Assembly (NCBI GenBank): GCA_017410195.1
Contig: JAFQRF010000057.1
Coordinates: 1-58,540 of the forward strand
Reading direction: 5' to 3'
Length of the DNA: 58,540 bases
DNA from: Clostridia bacterium
GTDB taxonomy: Bacteria > Bacillota > Clostridia > Oscillospirales > Acutalibacteraceae
This document shows positions 16,513-25,296 of the stretch, in pieces. Position numbers and translations under genes: made by a program. Each line of letters begins with the position of its first letter. Within the stretch, counting starts at the first letter, position 1. Below the pieces are notes generated by a model. The model saw only the letters and a list, made by a program, of their open reading frames with translations, searched no databases and was not told the origin of the DNA.

Positions 16513-17076
16513 TTATCTTCCTCCGGTCAGAAGCGAAATTGCTTCCGCCCTCGTTTTTGAATCGCTTCTCATTGTACCCCTGAGTGCCGAAGTCCTCGTC
16601 TGCGCACCTGAAGCCCTTGCGCCTCGCATCGTCATGCAGAGATGCTCTGCCTCAACAACAACCGCAACGCCCTGTGGGCTGAGGTTTTCATCAAGGAAAT
16701 CCGCAATCTGCGCCGTCAGACGTTCCTGAAGCTGAGGTCTTTTTGCAAAGGATTCAACTATCCTCGCAAGCTTTGAAAGACCGATAACCTTGCCGTCGGA
16801 GGGGATATAGGCGATATGCGCCTTACCCATAAACGGTATGAGATGATGCTCGCACATCGAGTAAAGCGGAATGTCACGAACAACAACCATCTCTTCGTTA
16901 CCGCTTTCATTAAAAAGCTTGAGATGTCTTGTGGGGTTATCTTCAAGACCGGAGAAAATCTCCTCATACATCCTCGCAACTCTTGCGGGAGTTTCAACAA
17001 GACCTTCTCTGTCGGGGTCTTCTCCGATGGCAATGAGAATTTCTCTCACCGCCGCCTCTATTCTTTGTTTATCCAT
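16513..17076 (-). CDS. folE: GTP cyclohydrolase I
   Basis: 187 residues from the ATG at 17076, chosen because GAAAGG lies 8 bases before it and the upstream stop lies just before it. FolE converts GTP to dihydroneopterin triphosphate. Motifs: [20 protein letters not shown] near the start, the zinc-site segment [20 protein letters not shown], and [20 protein letters not shown], with conserved Cys and His ligands present. It heads the folE-folP-folB-folK set inside the longer minus-strand operon. Confidence 0.95.
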
Positions 17077-17080
17077 ATTA

Positions 17081-18253
17081 TCAGCCTTTCTCGGGAACAA
17101 GAGTCAGCATAAACTGACCTTCATCTTTAAAGTAAGTTATTGATTTTTGGGAATATCCCGCAACCGTCAGACCGTCAGCTCCGGCAAGAATTTTATAGAT
17201 TCTGCCGTTTTCAATCAGGTCCTTGATTGCGGCGTTATATACCTTTTTGCTGCCGAAGCGCAGCTGGATTTCGCCGTTTCCGTTTCCGATATCCTCGGAG
17301 ATAATATCGGCAATTCTGTCTTCATAAGAGCGATCGTATTCTTCAAAAAATCTGTCTGTTCTGACATAATAATTCTCCGCTGTTTTGATGCAGACAAAAT
17401 TATAAGAGAATTTCGAGTGCGTTTTCGATATCATTTTTGTTGTGACATTAAAGTAGGAATAAAGCCTGACGTCCTTGCCCTCGTCGGTAATCGGGTCATC
17501 CCAGGTGCAGTCAAGATAATAAAAATCTCCGTTGATTTTAACCGCATTCCACATGTGCGGACCTTCGATGCCGTCAAAGCTTTTTGAAATGCCGCTGACC
17601 ATGGCACTTTCGATTCCGACCTCGTCAAAAAGCAGCTTCGCCGTCCTCGAATAGCCTTCGCACGCCGCATATCCGTTGACCAGCACGCCGTAAACCGATG
17701 AACAGACAAGCTTCGGCTCGCTCAGCTCATAGCGGCAGTTATCAACAATATAATCGTGGATTTCAAGCTCCGTCTGCCATTCGTCCTCGGGATTTGAAAG
17801 ACCTGCAATAACCCTTTGCGCAGCCTGCGCGATTTCGTCACGCTGAGCGGGATATTCGTCCTTCGTTATGATATATTCAACTGCACAATAGGTTTTGAGC
17901 ATCTTTGAAGAAAGAGTACATTTTCTGCCGACAAAGAATAAATCGGGATTATCCATAAGGATAGCCGTGAAAACCCGGTCAAGCTGATCGGCATTGATTG
18001 CGGGAATTTCAATTTCCTCGGGCATGCCGTAAATATTCGTTATAATTTCGTTATAGGCATGCTTTTCGATGTTGTCAAGCTTTTCGTAGTAGAATTTATA
18101 AGGGCTGCCGAATTCCGTCACTTCCTGAGCTTCCGTGCCGTACCATTGATACATTTCGGATGAAGTGAGAACAACGTAGCCTATGGTCAGAGCCGCCGCA
18201 ATGCAGACGAGAGTCAGTACGGCGCTCATCAAAAATGAAAAAAGTTTTTTCAT
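17081..18253 (-). CDS. Membrane-anchored transglutaminase-like protein
   Basis: 390 residues from the ATG at 18253, favoured over 18265 by the GAGG site. One N-terminal membrane helix or signal anchor (about 2-28) is followed by an extracytoplasmic domain. The catalytic triad pattern is complete: Cys in [20 protein letters not shown], His in [12 protein letters not shown] and Asp in [10 protein letters not shown]. This is the transglutaminase/protease-like superfamily common on Clostridia envelopes; the substrate is unknown. It overlaps the upstream LCP-like gene, so both are probably made together and may act in wall remodelling. Confidence 0.8.
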
Positions 18254-18254
18254 A

Positions 18255-19127
18255 TCATTCCTCATTTATTTCTTGGGGAGAGTCAACGATGTTTCTCTCC
18301 TTGATTCCGCTCTGCATGAACGCTTTTATTCCGTTTTCCGCCGCAGAATAATCAACTATTGAAAGATTTGTTCTGAGCGTATTTGAGAGCTTGGAAAAAT
18401 ACCGTTCACGTTTTTCAATGTTTGAGGATTTGAAAACACCGTCAAGAATTTCAAGCAAAGCGGAAGCTTGAAGATTTTCGCCCCTCGCTCCTATTGTTCC
18501 GAGATAACGAAGATATTTAAAAAGACTGTCCGCCTTAATATTCTGCTTTCCTTTGACAAGGATAACCGTGAATTCCTCGGAGCGGTATTCAATCTGTTCG
18601 GGAACGGTTATGTCCGCACCGCCGAGATAATTTATCATTGCCTTGAAGCTTTCGGTATCCGAGCCTATATATCCGTCAATTGAAGCTCCGATAAGTTCCT
18701 CAAGCTTTTTGACAGCCTCGTTTTCACCGGATTTTGCAAGCACGGCTTCAAGAGTTTCCTCTCCGTCGGAAAGACGGGTGTCCGGAGGCAGAGTACACAC
18801 GCTAACCTCGGCTTCGGGCAGCCTGAAATTAACAAGCCACGCAAAATGAAGCTCCTTGCTTTCGGAATCCGCACACCAGAAAAAATAGGTTTTATCCGCT
18901 TCCTCCTGCCACTCGGTTGTTCCCTGAGAAACGGGCTGAGTGGTAGTCAGCGAATCGCCGCCCATCGCCGTTCTGACATCAAAATCGTATTTATTGAGAA
19001 TAACAAGGCACGAAACAAGAAGAATCATAAGAACACACACGGAAAAAATCGCAGAGAATTTTCTGAATCCTCTGTCATTGCTTTTCCGTTCGGGTCTGAA
19101 CATGATATTTTTTGTCTTTTTAGCCAT
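18255..19127 (-). CDS. Divergent LytR-CpsA-Psr (LCP)-like protein
   Basis: 290 residues with one membrane helix (about 27-45) and an extracytoplasmic domain. LCP enzymes attach glycopolymers to peptidoglycan. The pattern is recognisable but altered: VCTLPPDTRLSDGEE where the family has PRDTR, then GASIDGYIGSDTESFKAMIN and YLGGADITVP, then VKGKQNIKADSLFKYLRY where GxQxLxGxxALxYxR is usual, and GARGENLQ where a GRxxRQQ-type arginine is usual. Loss of Arg at these positions may mean altered or absent phosphotransfer. It lies 18 bases after the GH13 gene. Confidence 0.7.
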   Translation of the reverse strand: MAKKTKNIMFRPERKSNDRGFRKFSAIFSVCVLMILLVSCLVILNKYDFDVRTAMGGDSLTTTQPVSQGTTEWQEEADKTYFFWCADSESKELHFAWLVNFRLPEAEVSVCTLPPDTRLSDGEETLEAVLAKSGENEAVKKLEELIGASIDGYIGSDTESFKAMINYLGGADITVPEQIEYRSEEFTVILVKGKQNIKADSLFKYLRYLGTIGARGENLQASALLEILDGVFKSSNIEKRERYFSKLSNTLRTNLSIVDYSAAENGIKAFMQSGIKERNIVDSPQEINEE

Positions 19128-19145
19128 TTATATTAACCTTATTTC

Positions 19146-21002
19146 TTAAAGTGATTTTATAAGGATTGCCGCCGTTTCTCCGTCAAGATACAGTTCTCTG
19201 CCGCTGACGGTGCCGCCTGCAAGCGGCTCAAACCCATCCTCGGGAAGAATATAAACAATCGAATGACTGTTGCGGTTTGCAACGGTCATTATTCGTTCAC
19301 CCCTGCCCCGTCTTTCATAAGCAACGCAGCCCATCGCCGCCGAAACGGGAACAAACTCTCCGTCAATAAAAACCTCATGCTCTCTGCGGAGTCTGCCGAG
19401 AAAACGGTAATGCTCAATAAGCTCATTATCCTCGTTTTCCCAAGGATAACATCCTCTGTTATAAGGATCCTCGCCGCCGTCAAGCCCTGCCTCGTCGCCG
19501 TAATAAATGCTCGGCACGCCCGGCAAAGTGAACTGCATTGCAGAAACAAGTCTGAGCAGCTTTTTGCCGAATTCGGTCTGTTCTTCGGTCAGACCGCCTT
19601 TGTAGCGGTCAAGATGAGATCCGTGATAGCAGCCGAGAGTTGCAAGGCGGCTGAGAATGCGGCAGGTATCGTGAGTGCCGATGTGGTTCATAAGGCAGTC
19701 AACCGCAGGCTTCGGATAGTTTTCGCAGATTTCGGAAATCTTATCGTTGAAGCCCTCCGCTTCACCCCTTATCGCAAAATCAATAAGGTAATCCGCAAAG
19801 GGATAATTCATAACGCTGTCAAGCTGTGCGCCGCGAAGATAACGCCTTCTGCTGCCGTAGCTTACTTTGTTCGATGCATCCTCCCAGACCTCGCCGAGAA
19901 TGAACGCATCGGATTTTTCCTCCTTGACGGCTTTTCTGAGCGCATCAAGAAATTTATCGGGCAGTTCGTCCGCAACATCAAGTCTCCAGCCGCTTGCACC
20001 GGCTTTGAGCCACTTGCGCAGAATTCCTTTTTTACCTGCAATATATTCAATATATCCGTCATTTTCTTCATTGATCTCGGGAAGAATGTCAACTCCCCAC
20101 CAGCTTGAGTATTCATCGGGATATCTGCCGAATTTATACCAGTCATAATAGGGTGATTCCTTACTGTTATAAGCTCCGACGGACTTATATCTGCAGTTTT
20201 TGTTGAAATATATGCTGTCTGAACCCGTATGGCTGAAAACACCGTCAAGAACAATGCCGATTTCCCTTTCCCTTGCGGCTTTGCATAAATCGGAAAAATC
20301 CTTTGCCGTGCCGAGAAGAGGGTCAATTTTTTCATAGCTTGCCGTGTCGTAACGGTGATTGGTGTGTGCCTCAAAAACGGGGTTGAGATATATGCAGCCG
20401 ACACCGAGAGCTTCAAGATAGTCAAGCTTCTGCTCAATGCCCTTGAAGTCGCCGCCGAAATAGTCGTATTTTGTTATTCTTCCGTCACGGTCAGGCTCCC
20501 ATATCGGCTCGCCGCCCCAGTCGGAGCGCAGAATTCTGTCCTTAGGAACATTTCTTTTTGCCTTTCCGGAATTACGGAATCTGTCAGGGAAAATCTGATA
20601 GATAACCGAGCCTTTTATCCAATCGGGCGTTGAAAAATCCGATGAATAAACGGTCAGCTGAAAGTCATTGCCGTCCGGCGACAGTCTGCCGGTTGAATTG
20701 TCAAATCTGGTTATTTCTTTTGTGCCGTCCTTGCAGTCAGCTGAAAAGCGATACCAGTATATTCCCTCTTTTTCGGGAGTAAAATCGGCACGCCACCACT
20801 CTTCGTCGCTACCCTGCATTCCGTCCCACGTCATGGGAATGCGCAGGCTTTCTCCGCCGTCGATGCCGACAACAAGAGCCGCACCCGTGCAGCAGAGGCT
20901 TCGGGGCAGAACGATGCGGAAAACCGTTTCCTCGCCGTCTCTGACCGCTCCGAAAGGGTATTTATGATAAGTCAGCCGTGAATTATAGGGTATGAATTCC
21001 AT
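19146..21002 (-). CDS. Glycoside hydrolase family 13 alpha-glycosidase (neopullulanase/maltodextrin-type)
   Basis: 618 residues. An N-terminal beta-sandwich (about 1-120, CBM34-like) precedes a TIM-barrel domain with the conserved GH13 blocks: VIYQIFPDRF near 133, VLDGVFSHTG at 251-260, GWRLDVADE with the nucleophile Asp342, ILGEVWED with Glu371 and HIGTHDT with Asp445. A short C-terminal domain follows. There is no signal peptide, so it probably acts on imported maltodextrins or glycogen-type glucans in the cytoplasm. Its start overlaps the preceding small gene by 20 bases. Confidence 0.9.
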   Translation of the reverse strand: MEFIPYNSRLTYHKYPFGAVRDGEETVFRIVLPRSLCCTGAALVVGIDGGESLRIPMTWDGMQGSDEEWWRADFTPEKEGIYWYRFSADCKDGTKEITRFDNSTGRLSPDGNDFQLTVYSSDFSTPDWIKGSVIYQIFPDRFRNSGKAKRNVPKDRILRSDWGGEPIWEPDRDGRITKYDYFGGDFKGIEQKLDYLEALGVGCIYLNPVFEAHTNHRYDTASYEKIDPLLGTAKDFSDLCKAAREREIGIVLDGVFSHTGSDSIYFNKNCRYKSVGAYNSKESPYYDWYKFGRYPDEYSSWWGVDILPEINEENDGYIEYIAGKKGILRKWLKAGASGWRLDVADELPDKFLDALRKAVKEEKSDAFILGEVWEDASNKVSYGSRRRYLRGAQLDSVMNYPFADYLIDFAIRGEAEGFNDKISEICENYPKPAVDCLMNHIGTHDTCRILSRLATLGCYHGSHLDRYKGGLTEEQTEFGKKLLRLVSAMQFTLPGVPSIYYGDEAGLDGGEDPYNRGCYPWENEDNELIEHYRFLGRLRREHEVFIDGEFVPVSAAMGCVAYERRGRGERIMTVANRNSHSIVYILPEDGFEPLAGGTVSGRELYLDGETAAILIKSL

Positions 21003-21267
21003 CTGTCATTTCCTTAAAACCAAAATTAATTGCCGCCGCCTGCTGTTCATAAGGCAGCTCAGTTATTTTTATAAGGATATCGGTGAAGAAATAGCCGATA
21101 CCGATAAGCGCAAGGATTCCTGCGGTTATCAGGATTGCCGTTGCGATTTTCTTGCTCCTGACCCTCTCCTCATAGGTCGGACCCGAGCCGAAACGGGTTG
21201 AAAATTCCGTTATGCTCTTGCGTTCGGAGGGCTTGAGCGTTTTTTCTATTTTTCCTGTCTTAGGCAT
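20983..21267 (-). CDS. Small single-pass membrane protein downstream of the Rnf-like genes
   Basis: 94 residues from the ATG at 21267, preceded by TTGAGG; a longer frame starting at 21477 runs through the rnfA-like gene and is not credible. A basic N-terminal region (KTGKIEKTLKPSERKS, then YEERVRSKK) leads into one membrane helix (IATAILITAGILALIGIGYF, about 46-65) and a short C-terminal tail. No family was recognised. Its place between the rnfA-like gene (10 bases away) and GH13 suggests an accessory subunit of the membrane module, but this is inference. Confidence 0.65.
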   Translation of the reverse strand: MPKTGKIEKTLKPSERKSITEFSTRFGSGPTYEERVRSKKIATAILITAGILALIGIGYFFTDILIKITELPYEQQAAAINFGFKEMTDGIHTL

Positions 21268-21277
21268 GTTTTTTACC

Positions 21278-21871
21278 TCAACCGAAAATATTTGAGTCTG
21301 TGAACCCTGCAAACGCAAGCGAAAGCATGGCAACGTAAATAAACATGGTCGGTGTACCCTTGAAAACCTCGGGGATTTCGTCATTCTCCGCAAGCTTCCG
21401 TGAGCCTTGGCTGATAAGCGCCGCCGCAAGAACGAACGCAATGCCTGCGCCGATTCCCGAGCCGATGCTGCCTGCAAAGGAGTATGCCGCCGAATTATTT
21501 ATATGCGGAACGGCAAAAACAAGCGTATTCAGCGCCGCAATGCCGAGAGTTCCGAGAACCTTCGGCGATGAACCGAAAACAAAGCGCATCACCGCCGCCG
21601 CAATGATATATACACCCGTCAATACTGCCGCATATATTGCCGCCCTGACTGCATAGGTCATGCCTTCAAGCGATGAAACGGAGTCAATCAGGCTGCATAG
21701 TGTACTTGTCACAACCGAAAAGCCCGAAATCATCAGCGCAAATTTGCCGAAGGTGCCGGGTCTTGTGGAAACTCTGATTGCCTCGCTCATTCCGAGGCCC
21801 GAGCTGAGTACGAGATTCTGAGCAAAAACCGTATAAAGGGCGGTTATAAGCAGGTCGGTTATCATTCTCAT
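21278..21871 (-). CDS. RnfA/NqrE-like integral membrane subunit lacking the iron-sulfur cysteines
   Basis: 197 residues with about six membrane helices. Homology to RnfA/RsxA is clearest in the C-terminal half: GAGIAFVLAAALISQGSRKL, then EIPEVFKGTPTMFIYVAMLS and LAFAGF, which match the (L/V)P-x-F-(R/K)GTP pattern. In canonical RnfA the first helix ends in LGICPFLG and a mid-protein helix carries TTNC; here those places read LGMSEAIR (about 26-33) and GSSPKVLG (about 100-107), so both cluster cysteines are absent. It overlaps the rnfE-like gene by 4 bases. Calling it a redox pump would be unsafe. Confidence 0.75.
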   Translation of the reverse strand: MRMITDLLITALYTVFAQNLVLSSGLGMSEAIRVSTRPGTFGKFALMISGFSVVTSTLCSLIDSVSSLEGMTYAVRAAIYAAVLTGVYIIAAAVMRFVFGSSPKVLGTLGIAALNTLVFAVPHINNSAAYSFAGSIGSGIGAGIAFVLAAALISQGSRKLAENDEIPEVFKGTPTMFIYVAMLSLAFAGFTDSNIFG

Positions 21872-22725
21872 TGCTTATCCCCCTTTATGTCAATATCAAT
21901 TCCGAGCGATTTCAAAAGCTCATCGATTTCCTCGGCGGTGCTGAATTTCGGCTCGTCTTTTTCGGCTGACGGAGCTTCGGGAACGGGAATATCCGGTTTC
22001 TCTTCCTCAACGGATTCAGTCCAGAATTCGTCAAAAAGCTCAACCTCTGTGGCTTCCTGAGAATAATCCTCGGATGCCTGAGTAACAGGCTTGATTTCAG
22101 GCTCTCCGTTTTCCGAATCCTCGGGATAAACACGGGCAACGAATGCCTTCAGACCTGCCGCCAAAAATCCGAGAAGGATAAGACAGCCGAAGGGCAGAGC
22201 CATCCCCTTGAAGGTTATCGGCAGATTTACCGCTATTCCGCCAACGGTCGAATAGCCGAGCAGCTCTCTGACTGCGCCGACGATAATGAAAATAAATGAT
22301 GCGCCTATGCCTGCCGCCGCCGCATCATAAAGCGACAGCTTAACGCTGTTTTTAACCGAAAACTGCTCGCAATGCACGGCAGTCATCGAGTTGACCGCAA
22401 TCAGGGGAACAAAAATTTTCATGCCGAGGCTCAGGTTTAAGAGAGTTTGTGTTTCAACATACCAAAGAAGAGGGCATATAATTGCGGCCCCGATAATAAT
22501 ATAGAGCGGAACTCTTACCCACCTCGGTATTTTTTTCAGAAATGCGCTTGAGATAACGCAGGTAACGATAAGCTCGATGCAAAGCACCGCTGAGAGCATT
22601 GCCGCTCTTGCAAGTGTCGTTGATGCGGCAACAACGGGGCAGAGTCCGACAAGCTGAATCAGAACGGGGTTATAAATAACTGCACCTTTGATAAATACGT
22701 CTTTAAAAGAAATATTATTACTCAT
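21868..22725 (-). CDS. RnfE/NqrD-like integral membrane subunit with an acidic C-terminal tail
   Basis: 285 residues, longer than the usual 200-230. The N-terminal 200 residues form about six helices and match RnfE: NPVLIQLVGLCPVVAASTTL at 19-38 keeps the first cluster Cys (about 29), but the second site, normally VNC, reads VNSMTAVH with Ser at about 113. GASFIFIIVGAVRELLG also matches. The final 80 or so residues are an acidic, Pro/Glu-rich cytoplasmic tail ending in AEEIDELLKSLGIDIDI, absent from standard RnfE as I know it. It overlaps both neighbours by 4 bases. Confidence 0.78.
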   Translation of the reverse strand: MSNNISFKDVFIKGAVIYNPVLIQLVGLCPVVAASTTLARAAMLSAVLCIELIVTCVISSAFLKKIPRWVRVPLYIIIGAAIICPLLWYVETQTLLNLSLGMKIFVPLIAVNSMTAVHCEQFSVKNSVKLSLYDAAAAGIGASFIFIIVGAVRELLGYSTVGGIAVNLPITFKGMALPFGCLILLGFLAAGLKAFVARVYPEDSENGEPEIKPVTQASEDYSQEATEVELFDEFWTESVEEEKPDIPVPEAPSAEKDEPKFSTAEEIDELLKSLGIDIDIKGDKQ

Positions 22726-23681
22726 TTTTCAGCCGCCCCCTTATTTTTGGTTTTACCGAATGAGGGCAGAGCATTCAATGCAGCTTCAAGAACGGGCGAA
22801 AATCCGTTTGCCATAAGCACCGCAAAACAGACGGTTTCTTCGTAAGTACCGACAGTTCTCATTGCCATACATATTATTCCGCAAACCGCGCCGTAAATTA
22901 CTTTTGTTATGCCGCCCTTCGGGAGCGTTGAATGGTCGGTAACAAGGAATACTGCGCCGAAAAGCAATGAGCCTGCAGAAAGTTCAAGAACGATGCTTGT
23001 GAGCGCAGAAGAATTGACCCTCGGGAAAAGCACCGCATAAATAACGCATGCGGCAACGAATCCTGCCGTTGCGAGAAGCGCACTTCTTCTGCGGATAAAA
23101 AGATAGCAGCAGCACACTGCCATAAGCATTCCGCAGCCCGTACCCATAGGTCCGGCAATGTTTCCGGAAACAATGTCAAAAACATTGGCGATATTGATAT
23201 GGATTGCACCGCCCTCGGAAAGCAGGGAAGCGAGCGATTTTGCGCCGAAGAGCTTGTCCTCGGTATTCAGAGAATAATCGAAAACCTGCTCCTTGAAGCA
23301 CACGCTTGCAATTGCAAATCCTGCAGCTGCAGGCACAAACGGCGCCCGAAGCGAGCTGCCGAACGGGATTTTTGCGGTCAGCACACCTGCCGCCGATGCA
23401 ATCGCAGGCACATAGAGAGGCACTCCTGCAGGCATCATAACCGCAATCGCCGTGCCGATAAAAATATTGCTTGTATCTCGGAGCAAAAACCTTTTTTTGA
23501 GAAGAAAGCTTGCCGCAAAGTCGCAGAAAACAGCGCTCAGAACGCTCACGGCGATAACCGCCGCTGCCCTTGAACCGTAATACATAACGGAAACTATGCA
23601 CGGGGCGATGAGCATGATGAGATAGTCACCGAAAATCTGCGAAGCTTTGACCGTATTCTGTTTTGAGGTTTTGGTTGCCAA
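22722..23681 (-). CDS. RnfD/NqrB-like integral membrane subunit lacking the flavin-linked threonine
   Basis: 319 residues with about nine helices, starting at a TTG 7-8 bases after GAGGTG. The order of conserved segments matches RnfD: RDTSNIFIGTAIAVMMPAGV for the DGSAxVTGLLLA region, FGSSLRAPFVPAAAGFA for the FGGxGxNxFNPA region, and VSGNIAGPMGTG for the GNxxGSxGExS region. The FMN-linked Thr of RnfD lies in an (S/T)xATPL-type motif; the equivalent here reads FGAKSLAS (145-152), with Lys in place of Thr. It is the first gene of the long minus-strand run and faces mecA-like across 120 bases. Confidence 0.75.
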   Translation of the reverse strand: MATKTSKQNTVKASQIFGDYLIMLIAPCIVSVMYYGSRAAAVIAVSVLSAVFCDFAASFLLKKRFLLRDTSNIFIGTAIAVMMPAGVPLYVPAIASAAGVLTAKIPFGSSLRAPFVPAAAGFAIASVCFKEQVFDYSLNTEDKLFGAKSLASLLSEGGAIHINIANVFDIVSGNIAGPMGTGCGMLMAVCCCYLFIRRRSALLATAGFVAACVIYAVLFPRVNSSALTSIVLELSAGSLLFGAVFLVTDHSTLPKGGITKVIYGAVCGIICMAMRTVGTYEETVCFAVLMANGFSPVLEAALNALPSFGKTKNKGAAEK

Positions 23682-23803: not shown

Positions 23804-24388
23804 ATGAAAATCAATTCACCTGACGAGGATAAAATAATAGTTGACCTGACGAGCCGCGATATGCTTGAACTTGATATTACATATGAAGATATGGATTATT
23901 CTACTATAGAAACACGCCGTGTTATCTGGACCGTTCTTGACGAAGCGGGAAAAGTCCTCGGGCGTGAGCTTGACCCGTCACGCAGAATGATTATCGAAGC
24001 TTCGCCGAAGCCCGAAGGGGGCTGCACGCTGTGCTTCACCATTCTTGACAGCAAAAGAAAGTCCGTTTCTCAAAAGCATACTCTTAAAAAACAGAGCGAA
24101 AGCATCGTCTGCGATTTTGAAAATCTCGATGACCTTTTCAGGGCTGCCGAGGAAATCGAACGTTCGGGAACGGCTTCTCAGAGCAGTCTTTTTGAGCTTG
24201 ACGGAACATATCGGCTGATTTTGAACTGTTCATCGGAGATTGTGAAGGGCATTCTTTCCGAGTTTTGCCGTATACGAAATGCGAGCAGGCTGATTTGTGA
24301 TTTTACAAATGAGCATTGGCGTTTGCTTGCCGAAAATAATGCGGTTGGCTTGCTGTTAAATCAACAAGTAAAAAATAAAAGAACCTAA
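23804..24388 (+). CDS. MecA-family adaptor protein
   Basis: 194 residues with an AAAGGAGG ribosome site. MecA proteins hand substrates to the ClpC/ClpP protease. The N-terminal segment VDLTSRDMLELDITYEDMDY fits the substrate-binding domain (family: L-x-x-DM-x-E-x-G-I). The C-terminal half (about 103-185) has the ClpC-binding-domain layout: ENLDDLFRAAEEI, SLFELDGTYRLIL and a final helix-strand unit with NEHWRLLAENNAV. It is shorter than B. subtilis MecA because the central linker is short. It stands alone with its own promoter. Confidence 0.75.
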   Translation: MKINSPDEDKIIVDLTSRDMLELDITYEDMDYSTIETRRVIWTVLDEAGKVLGRELDPSRRMIIEASPKPEGGCTLCFTILDSKRKSVSQKHTLKKQSESIVCDFENLDDLFRAAEEIERSGTASQSSLFELDGTYRLILNCSSEIVKGILSEFCRIRNASRLICDFTNEHWRLLAENNAVGLLLNQQVKNKRT

Positions 24389-24588: not shown

Positions 24589-25263
24589 TTAATTCTGCAC
24601 TTGAAAAGCTTTCTCCGCAAGACTTCTGAGCTTCGCAATTTCCGCCGATGCATCCTCTGCACCGAAAACGGCACTGCCTGCAACAAAAACATTTGCACCT
24701 GCGGCTGCCGCAATTTCAATCGTCTTTCCGTTGATTCCGCCGTCAACCTGAATATCGGTATCAAGGCCTCTGCGTTTCATTTCGGCACGCAGGGTCTTTA
24801 TTTTTTCCATTGTTTCGGGCATGAAGGACTGACCGCCGAAGCCCGGTTCAACAGTCATAACAAGCACCATTGAAAGCTTTTCGAGATAAGGGAAAACCAT
24901 CTCTGCCGCCGTGTTTGGCTTGATGCTTATGCCTGCCTTGCAGCCGCATTCGATAATTTTATCAACCGTTTCGCCGACGGGAGACGAGCTTTCTGCGTGG
25001 AAAGTAATAATATCTGCTCCGGCTTTTCTGAAATCTTCAATATATTTTAGCGGTTCATCAATCATAAGATGAACATCAAAAACAAGGTCTGTTTTTCCTC
25101 GGATGCTTTTGATAACGGGCGCACCGAAGGTGATGTTAGGAACGAATCTGCCGTCCATAACATCAAGATGAAGATAATCCGCACCGCTTTTTTCCATTCT
25201 GATGCTCTCCTCTCCGAGAGCGGAGAAATCACTTGCAAGCACCGACGGAGAAATTTTTATCAT
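24589..25263 (-). CDS. rpe: Ribulose-phosphate 3-epimerase
   Basis: 224 residues from the ATG at 25263, which has GGGGAGG 8 bases before it. Rpe interconverts ribulose-5-P and xylulose-5-P in the pentose phosphate pathway. Motifs: ISPSVLASDF near the start, DYLHLDVMDGRFVPN (metal ligands His and Asp), DVHLMI, ITFHAE, VEPGFGGQSFMP and IQVDGGI, ending with VAGSAVFG. All catalytic residues appear present. It is monocistronic, with a well-formed promoter. Confidence 0.95.
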   Translation of the reverse strand: MIKISPSVLASDFSALGEESIRMEKSGADYLHLDVMDGRFVPNITFGAPVIKSIRGKTDLVFDVHLMIDEPLKYIEDFRKAGADIITFHAESSSPVGETVDKIIECGCKAGISIKPNTAAEMVFPYLEKLSMVLVMTVEPGFGGQSFMPETMEKIKTLRAEMKRRGLDTDIQVDGGINGKTIEIAAAAGANVFVAGSAVFGAEDASAEIAKLRSLAEKAFQVQN

Positions 25264-25296
25264 ATAGATATTCCTCCCCATAATAATTCATGTTAT

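Follow-up and report, generated by a model that had tools for sequence, protein, structure and literature searches.

The closest described relatives of the locus analysed here, three adjoining genes in a 58,540-nucleotide stretch of a Clostridia bacterium genome (contig JAFQRF010000057.1; the whole stretch is called the window below), are Rnf (RnfABCDGE) and Na+-NQR (NqrABCDEF). In the Rnf complex of C. tetanomorphum (structure 7ZC6), the reported iron ligands are RnfA Cys25 and Cys113 and RnfE Cys26 and Cys109, and the flavin site of RnfD is at Thr153 (PMC9588780). Rnf electrons are reported to go from the riboflavin of RnfD to RnfC (PMC12174285). Na+-NQR is described as a duplicated rnf operon minus rnfB (PMC4014512); in its NqrB subunit, F338 and F342 are the proposed Na+ gate and D346 binds riboflavin (PMC10643135). 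NQR/RNF-like flavinylated systems, in which an NqrF-type NAD (nicotinamide adenine dinucleotide) domain is fused to RnfD inside flavinylation clusters, are reported primarily from Actinobacteria and the Candidate Phyla Radiation (PMC8238504). The coupling of electron transfer to ion movement in Rnf/Nqr is still unsolved, and a cofactor-less family would be a natural control for it; among the open-access titles and abstract openings listed, we found no cofactor-less Rnf. The three window genes, homologues of rnfD, rnfE and rnfA (hereafter the module), appear to belong to such a family: judged from alignments, loss of the iron ligands and of the residues for flavin mononucleotide (FMN) runs through the roughly 70 loci read, which belong to three families. 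We give about an even chance to the reading that the module is a duplicated Rnf pump core that lost electron transfer and has been kept as a cofactor-free complex, most likely a transporter or an ion channel.

The three genes adjoin on the minus strand, with neighbouring frames overlapping by 4 bases:
22722..23681, minus strand: D, an RnfD/NqrB homologue of 319 amino acids with a TTG start (Pfam PF03116, E = 1.9e-51).
21868..22725, minus strand: E, an RnfE/NqrD homologue of 285 amino acids (PF02508, E = 4.9e-27), aligned with 7ZC6_E.
21278..21871, minus strand: A, an RnfA/NqrE homologue of 197 amino acids (PF02508, E = 8.9e-19).

The overlaps and Pfam matches agree with a preliminary description of this DNA, which had proposed three adjacent, coupled genes like those for RnfD, RnfE and RnfA, with no rnfC, rnfG or rnfB at the module; indeed, we found none of these last three beside it. 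D scored 175.6 bits against PF03116 (cut-off 27.7), and E and A scored 95.5 and 68.6 bits against PF02508 (cut-off 23.8), which places all three in the Rnf/Nqr superfamily. Scores against the NCBIfam rnfD, rnfE and rnfA models were 111, 88 and 52 bits, all far under the respective cut-offs of 207, 213 and 229. PF03116 was the sole Pfam domain in the 319 residues of D, and the scan showed no fusion to an NqrF-type NAD domain. Residues 196-285 of E (21868-22140) make up an extra acidic C-terminal tail of ~90 residues with an FDEFW motif, and the E proteins of loci L045-L048 are longer still.

Aligned with 7ZC6, window A has Ser29 in place of Cys25 and Thr116 (in ALNTLV) in place of Cys113, while window E keeps Cys29, the equivalent of Cys26, and has Ser113 in place of Cys109, leaving one of the four iron-site cysteines that a functional Rnf would carry. 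The preliminary description had read the first RnfA site (LGMSEAIR) as lacking its cysteine, RnfE as keeping its first cysteine and having serine for its second, and three of the four cysteines as gone, all of which the alignments bear out. Its second RnfA site, GSSPKVLG, was misplaced, being a loop upstream of the actual site, Thr116 in GIAALNTLV, although the count of three stands despite this correction. Conserved but shifted ligands were ruled out: the alignments showed no shifted Thr or Cys, and in multiple alignments A had no cysteine close to either Ser29 or Thr116. Across 38 aligned sequences of the genus level, neither of these two residues varied. The flavin Thr had been read as Lys; Thr is absent from this position of D in either alignment made, but the replacement is Lys only by pairwise phmmer and is the next residue, Ser, in an 80-row MAFFT alignment. 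The FMN contacts Arg130 and Glu185 are absent too, so that D lacks both a flavinylated Thr and its contacts, and Ala113 and Val116 stand in place of the riboflavin Asn pair. The pore residues Asp19, Gly237, Phe241, Phe245 and Asp249 are all present.

In 71 loci of the window's kind, here called stripped, the same sites were read from 71 A, 71 E and 70 D proteins and compared with 10 normal-type loci (nine full CDGEAB operons and the contig fragment L051). The stripped loci are related to one another, 33 being from the window's genus, and many of the genomes are incomplete; loci L087-L127 and L018-L048 overlap in part and were not summed, and one set kept 36 D and 37 A sequences from 41 loci after short or contig-cut rows were dropped. 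None of the 71 stripped loci kept A-Cys25 or E-Cys109, 14 kept A-Cys113 and 36 kept E-Cys26. Among the 69 readable at all four sites, 47 had one cysteine, 21 had none, one had two and none had all four, compared with all four in 9/10 normal-type loci (L052 keeps two), a difference that chance does not account for. Arg130 and Glu185 were kept in 0/70 stripped D proteins. The pore Gly was kept in all 70, the Phe gate residue equivalent to NqrB F342 in 65, and the entry Asp in 56, with Asp or Glu at the Asp248 position (window Asp249) in 63. At the position of NqrB F338, 66 of the 70 have Phe; 9/10 normal-type RnfD proteins have Leu there.

At L052 (G054:C9:66800-79400), a full CDGEAB operon, A-Cys25 and E-Cys109 are both Gly, and the other two cysteines, the D Thr, G, B and C are retained; the genome has a second RnfA with both cysteines (L183). 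Because these are the two sites that no stripped locus keeps, L052 may mimic an early stage of the process. The contig fragment L051 (G037:C68, 140-2654) encodes D, E and A with all four cysteines and the D Thr, has in the place of rnfG a 121-residue frame with one hydrophobic stretch that is too small for an FMN domain, and shows no rnfB match after A on the fragment. By its gene content, L051 reads as another partly reduced Rnf.

Module E was found in 32 of the 36 other genomes of the genus, in G009 only as contig-edge fragments, and was not found in G016, G018, G024 and G033. A profile built from 18 stripped A proteins, which separates the stripped from the normal kind, scored at least 147 bits in at least 55 of the 394 sampled genomes of the order (19 in f1, the window's family, one in f5 and 35 in f26), and since at most eight first-look candidates were scored per genome, this figure is probably a lower bound. 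Cys25 was absent in all 48 of these 55 genomes whose RnfA sites were read; the other seven (G247, G285, G359, G341, G158, G309 and G302) and two weaker f26 matches (G237, 136.5 bits; G206, 134.6 bits) lay outside this reading. Outside the order, the best match among 391 genomes of the class reached 131.7 bits, and both RnfA cysteines were present at all 21 next-best loci read, 20 of which lie outside the order. The named relatives are metagenome-assembled genomes labelled Clostridia, Clostridiales, Clostridiaceae, Ruminococcaceae or Oscillospiraceae, and herbivore guts are the source of many. The module is conserved in related genomes, both in the genus and, by profile, across three families of the order.

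The ratio of nonsynonymous to synonymous substitution rates (dN/dS) was 0.07-0.25 in the pairs tested, which indicates purifying selection, and the stripped loci have long open frames. It is extremely improbable, and largely refuted by this selection, by the spread of the module through the genus and by the invariance of Ser29 and Thr116, that the genes are decaying pseudogenes of a redundant rnf copy, even though the absence of G and B, and then of C and the outer domain of a downstream protein, H (below), resembles erosion. One stop was also flagged inside the A match in G254, G172, G316 and G237, yet the A frame as read in G254 and G172 is still 192-193 residues long. In unrooted trees of D and A (57 rows: 10 normal-type and 47 stripped, the latter including 10 of the genus/L049 set), the stripped group was separate from normal Rnf. 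The predicted model of window D preserves the RnfD fold, and identity of D to Amt/Rh ammonium and urea transporters was 6-13%, a far weaker match than that to RnfD. Together, the loss of iron and FMN residues in ~70 loci, the purifying selection and the predicted fold of D support the preliminary suggestion of a redox-inactive derivative.

A PF02508 scan of the window's genome returned four genes, namely module E and A and a stronger pair on contig 53, where a complete rnfCDGEAB operon lies, separate from the module's contig and with an ApbE gene nearby. The above-cut-off rnfB and rnfC of this genome sit in that canonical operon, whose C, G and B genes have D, E and A genes of their own. For INDEPENDENCE from normal Rnf, 75 genomes were checked, 37 of the genus (four without the module) and 38 others with the module. 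Above-cut-off rnfC was present in 72/75 and rnfB in 68/75, so that the module and normal Rnf usually coexist; many Clostridia, gut species included, hold a stripped Rnf-related set beside a normal Rnf. Homologous subunits could then mix, and the module might serve as an accessory or regulator of normal Rnf, either in mixed complexes with its C, G and B or as a decoy. We regard this as very unlikely, because the module and the normal operon are on different contigs in the window's genome and because one of the three genomes without rnfC, G235 (99% complete, 2 contigs), carries the module but lacks a normal Rnf; the other two, G003 and G009, are both fragmented. The only PF02508 genes of G235 are module E and A, its rnfB and rnfC matches are below cut-off, its module is of the C-D-E-A type, and an ApbE gene is present.

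An RnfC-like gene with both 4Fe-4S motifs was present in 12 of the 71 stripped loci and absent from 59. Both riboflavin-site Asn residues were kept in 9/12 loci with C compared with 1/58 without it, an association whose Fisher value of 3e-8 is a rough guide only because the rows are related. Since the riboflavin of RnfD hands electrons to RnfC in Rnf, the joint loss of C and the riboflavin site makes sense. This pattern would also suit a residual or altered redox role, mainly in the C-bearing relatives, for example from D riboflavin to the 4Fe-4S clusters of C, through a non-covalent flavin or through other cysteines. Near-invariant cysteines are indeed found in the window's genus (D C128, C183, C190, C212, C271 and C285, A C59 and E C119, in 31-33 of 32-33 sequences each), and any one of these positions has Cys in at most 3/10 normal-type loci. 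However, the GxGGxxFP loop and ECEP segment common to the nine normal RnfC proteins compared are gone from all 12 stripped-locus C proteins, no normal RnfG or RnfB match was found in any of the 71 stretches fetched, the FMN residues and the iron cage are gone, and in the window's genus none of 32 D proteins keeps either Asn and no C lies beside the module. A redox role of this kind is therefore unlikely.

The recurrent gene order at stripped loci is rpe-(mecA)-[C]-D-E-A-H, and its remaining members in the window are as follows:
20983..21267, minus strand: S, 94 amino acids with a basic N-terminus and one membrane helix, a truncated H by hhalign and hydropathy.
23804..24388, plus strand: MecA-like gene, divergent from the module (PF05389, 4.3e-15).
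24589..25281, minus strand: a gene which, by eye, we take to be rpe (ribulose-phosphate 3-epimerase), used in the tblastn synteny comparison.

In the stretches fetched, rpe was the most constant neighbour by tblastn, matching in 67/71 stripped and 0/10 normal-type loci; two of the misses (L038, L056) are at contig edges and two (L131, L134) are genuine. The MecA-like gene matched in 39/71 stripped loci by tblastn. Its sole normal-type match was at L050 (G059:C18), where a divergent MecA-like gene (PF05389, 1.3e-20) adjoins rnfC of a normal rnf operon.

H follows A in 28/71 loci (27 by tblastn, eight of these also by Pfam, and L049 by Pfam) and combines a basic N-terminus with a single membrane helix and a DUF4015 domain (PF13200) that hydropathy and charge predict to lie outside the cell; its length is 367-444 residues in 26/27. 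It was not found in the fetched stretch of eight C-D-E-A loci, and the stretch of L137 ends too soon to tell. Among the 33 loci of the window's genus, 30 have the short S, one (L045, with the same sequence as L121; DUF4015 at 1.7e-26) has full-length H, and two are cut by contig ends. When 21 S proteins were compared with the full-length H of the genus relative L121, hhalign gave a probability of 96.6% (E = 5.8e-10), and the longer frame containing S had no Pfam match, DUF4015 included, at E 0.001. Since S aligns to the N-terminus of H, we read S as H without its outer domain, homologous to the H anchor, and the 94-residue protein that had been tentatively attached to the module does belong to it. 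Derivation of the H helix from RnfG was rejected, as hhalign gave 5.3%, no better than an LCP-protein control against RnfG (8.8%), compared with 97% for H against S. In the same test the LCP helix reached 86% against H and 27% against S; helix profiles alone are thus weak, and the S-H case rests on the L121 alignment and on position. When H was considered as a possible active enzyme, the Asp of the DUF4015 motif LDxVxFP proved to be present in 6/27 H proteins and missing also from H at L164. At L164 itself (G038:C13), the DUF4015 gene comes directly after rnfB of a normal rnfCDGEAB operon (tblastn 2e-10), which makes an ancestral mecA-rnfCDGEAB-H locus possible.

The presence of H downstream of A would fit a scaffold, in which D-E-A moves nothing and instead anchors or assembles H or S and, in some relatives, C; the acidic E tail and the basic N-terminus of S could bind each other. 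Nevertheless, D-E-A is kept where the H ectodomain is missing (30/33 genus loci) and in the eight C-D-E-A loci in which H was not found in the fetched stretch, and the pore residues are among the best-kept positions. A scaffold is thus doubtful.

Farther out, 10 genes round the module at seven loci (two each at L129, L141 and L150, one each at L144, L149, L152 and L160) showed no shared functional theme, and the L152 neighbour frame had no family match. By eye, the genes downstream of S in the window (16513-21002) resemble those for an alpha-amylase-family enzyme, an LCP-type protein, a transglutaminase-like protein and GTP cyclohydrolase I; the amylase-like frame overlaps the end of S at its start. 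Genus relatives with enough sequence on that side keep this order, apart from L046-L048, in which the amylase-like match was not found.

An order of losses is suggested by the forms that survive (C-D-E-A with or without H, D-E-A-H and D-E-A-S): we infer a stepwise stripping that removed B and G as well as the FMN and iron sites, then C with the riboflavin site, and then the H ectodomain. Returning to the cofactor-free transporter or channel, we prefer it because the residues of the ion path are kept and the pore is the best-kept functional part, and transport via D in particular because the window's genus retained D-E-A-S while giving up C and, mostly, the H ectodomain. We assume that D, E and A still assemble as in Rnf. 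D would carry an ion or small solute through its RnfD/Amt-like pore, with the Phe pair as gate, and the flow would be powered by an existing gradient or by conformational change. The Ser and Thr at the old cysteine sites may narrow the A/E hourglass to a polar constriction where Rnf has its metal site, and the H/S helix may sit roughly at the place of the RnfG helix, a suggestion based on position and topology, with no homology found. In relatives with H, the extracellular DUF4015 domain could be moved, anchored or sensed by the D-E-A core; because the window's genus mostly keeps only the H anchor, the function under selection in that genus should lie with the core itself. A fuller and more tentative version, possible at best, is a redox-free transporter or sensor-channel in which the iron cage became a Ser/Thr constriction and the gated pore of D was kept, coupled, now or once, to a DUF4015 domain in RnfG's place, and whose stages of stripping survive in living Clostridia.

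Several observations weigh against a redox-free transporter. The C gene of the 12 loci is a partial redox feature, 10/70 D proteins overall keep both riboflavin Asn residues, and 3/70 have Thr at the flavin position. Retention of Asp249 is ambiguous and alone no sign of transport because its equivalent in NqrB, D346, binds riboflavin, and only 6/9 of the f1 D-E-A-H group have Asp or Glu there. Furthermore, packing alone could explain why the pore Gly and Phe are kept, the model of window A, whose fold may be RnfA-like, has low confidence (predicted local distance difference test score 67, with residues 6-23 under 50), and the neighbours beyond rpe, mecA and H vary and point to no substrate. 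Taken together, the lost cofactor sites and the kept ion path suggest that this second Rnf-related set moves or senses something without electron transfer. Such a family could reveal the activity of the membrane core when no electrons pass, and family-level annotation alone would label its genes electron-transport subunits, overstating energy metabolism.

Compared with known systems, the module shares with Rnf homologous D, E and A sequences, a predicted fold that is clear for D, the D-E-A order and largely kept pore residues. It differs in having no G or B and mostly no C, in the loss of the FMN and iron sites and, in the window's genus, of the riboflavin Asn residues, in a C that has lost GxGGxxFP and ECEP, and in its extra partner H or S and its rpe/mecA neighbourhood. 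No feature of D points to an ammonium or urea substrate, setting it apart from the Amt/Rh and urea transporters. NQR/RNF-like flavinylated systems likewise comprise, as described, part of the Rnf/Nqr genes with an RnfD/NqrB homologue as the basis, whereas module D has no NqrF-type fusion and lies outside a flavinylation cluster. Na+-NQR, on its published description, is also a duplicated rnf operon in a new role, and NqrB and module D have Phe at both gate positions; however, NQR gained the reductase NqrF and keeps its redox function, while the module shows no reductase gene and appears to have lost its redox sites.

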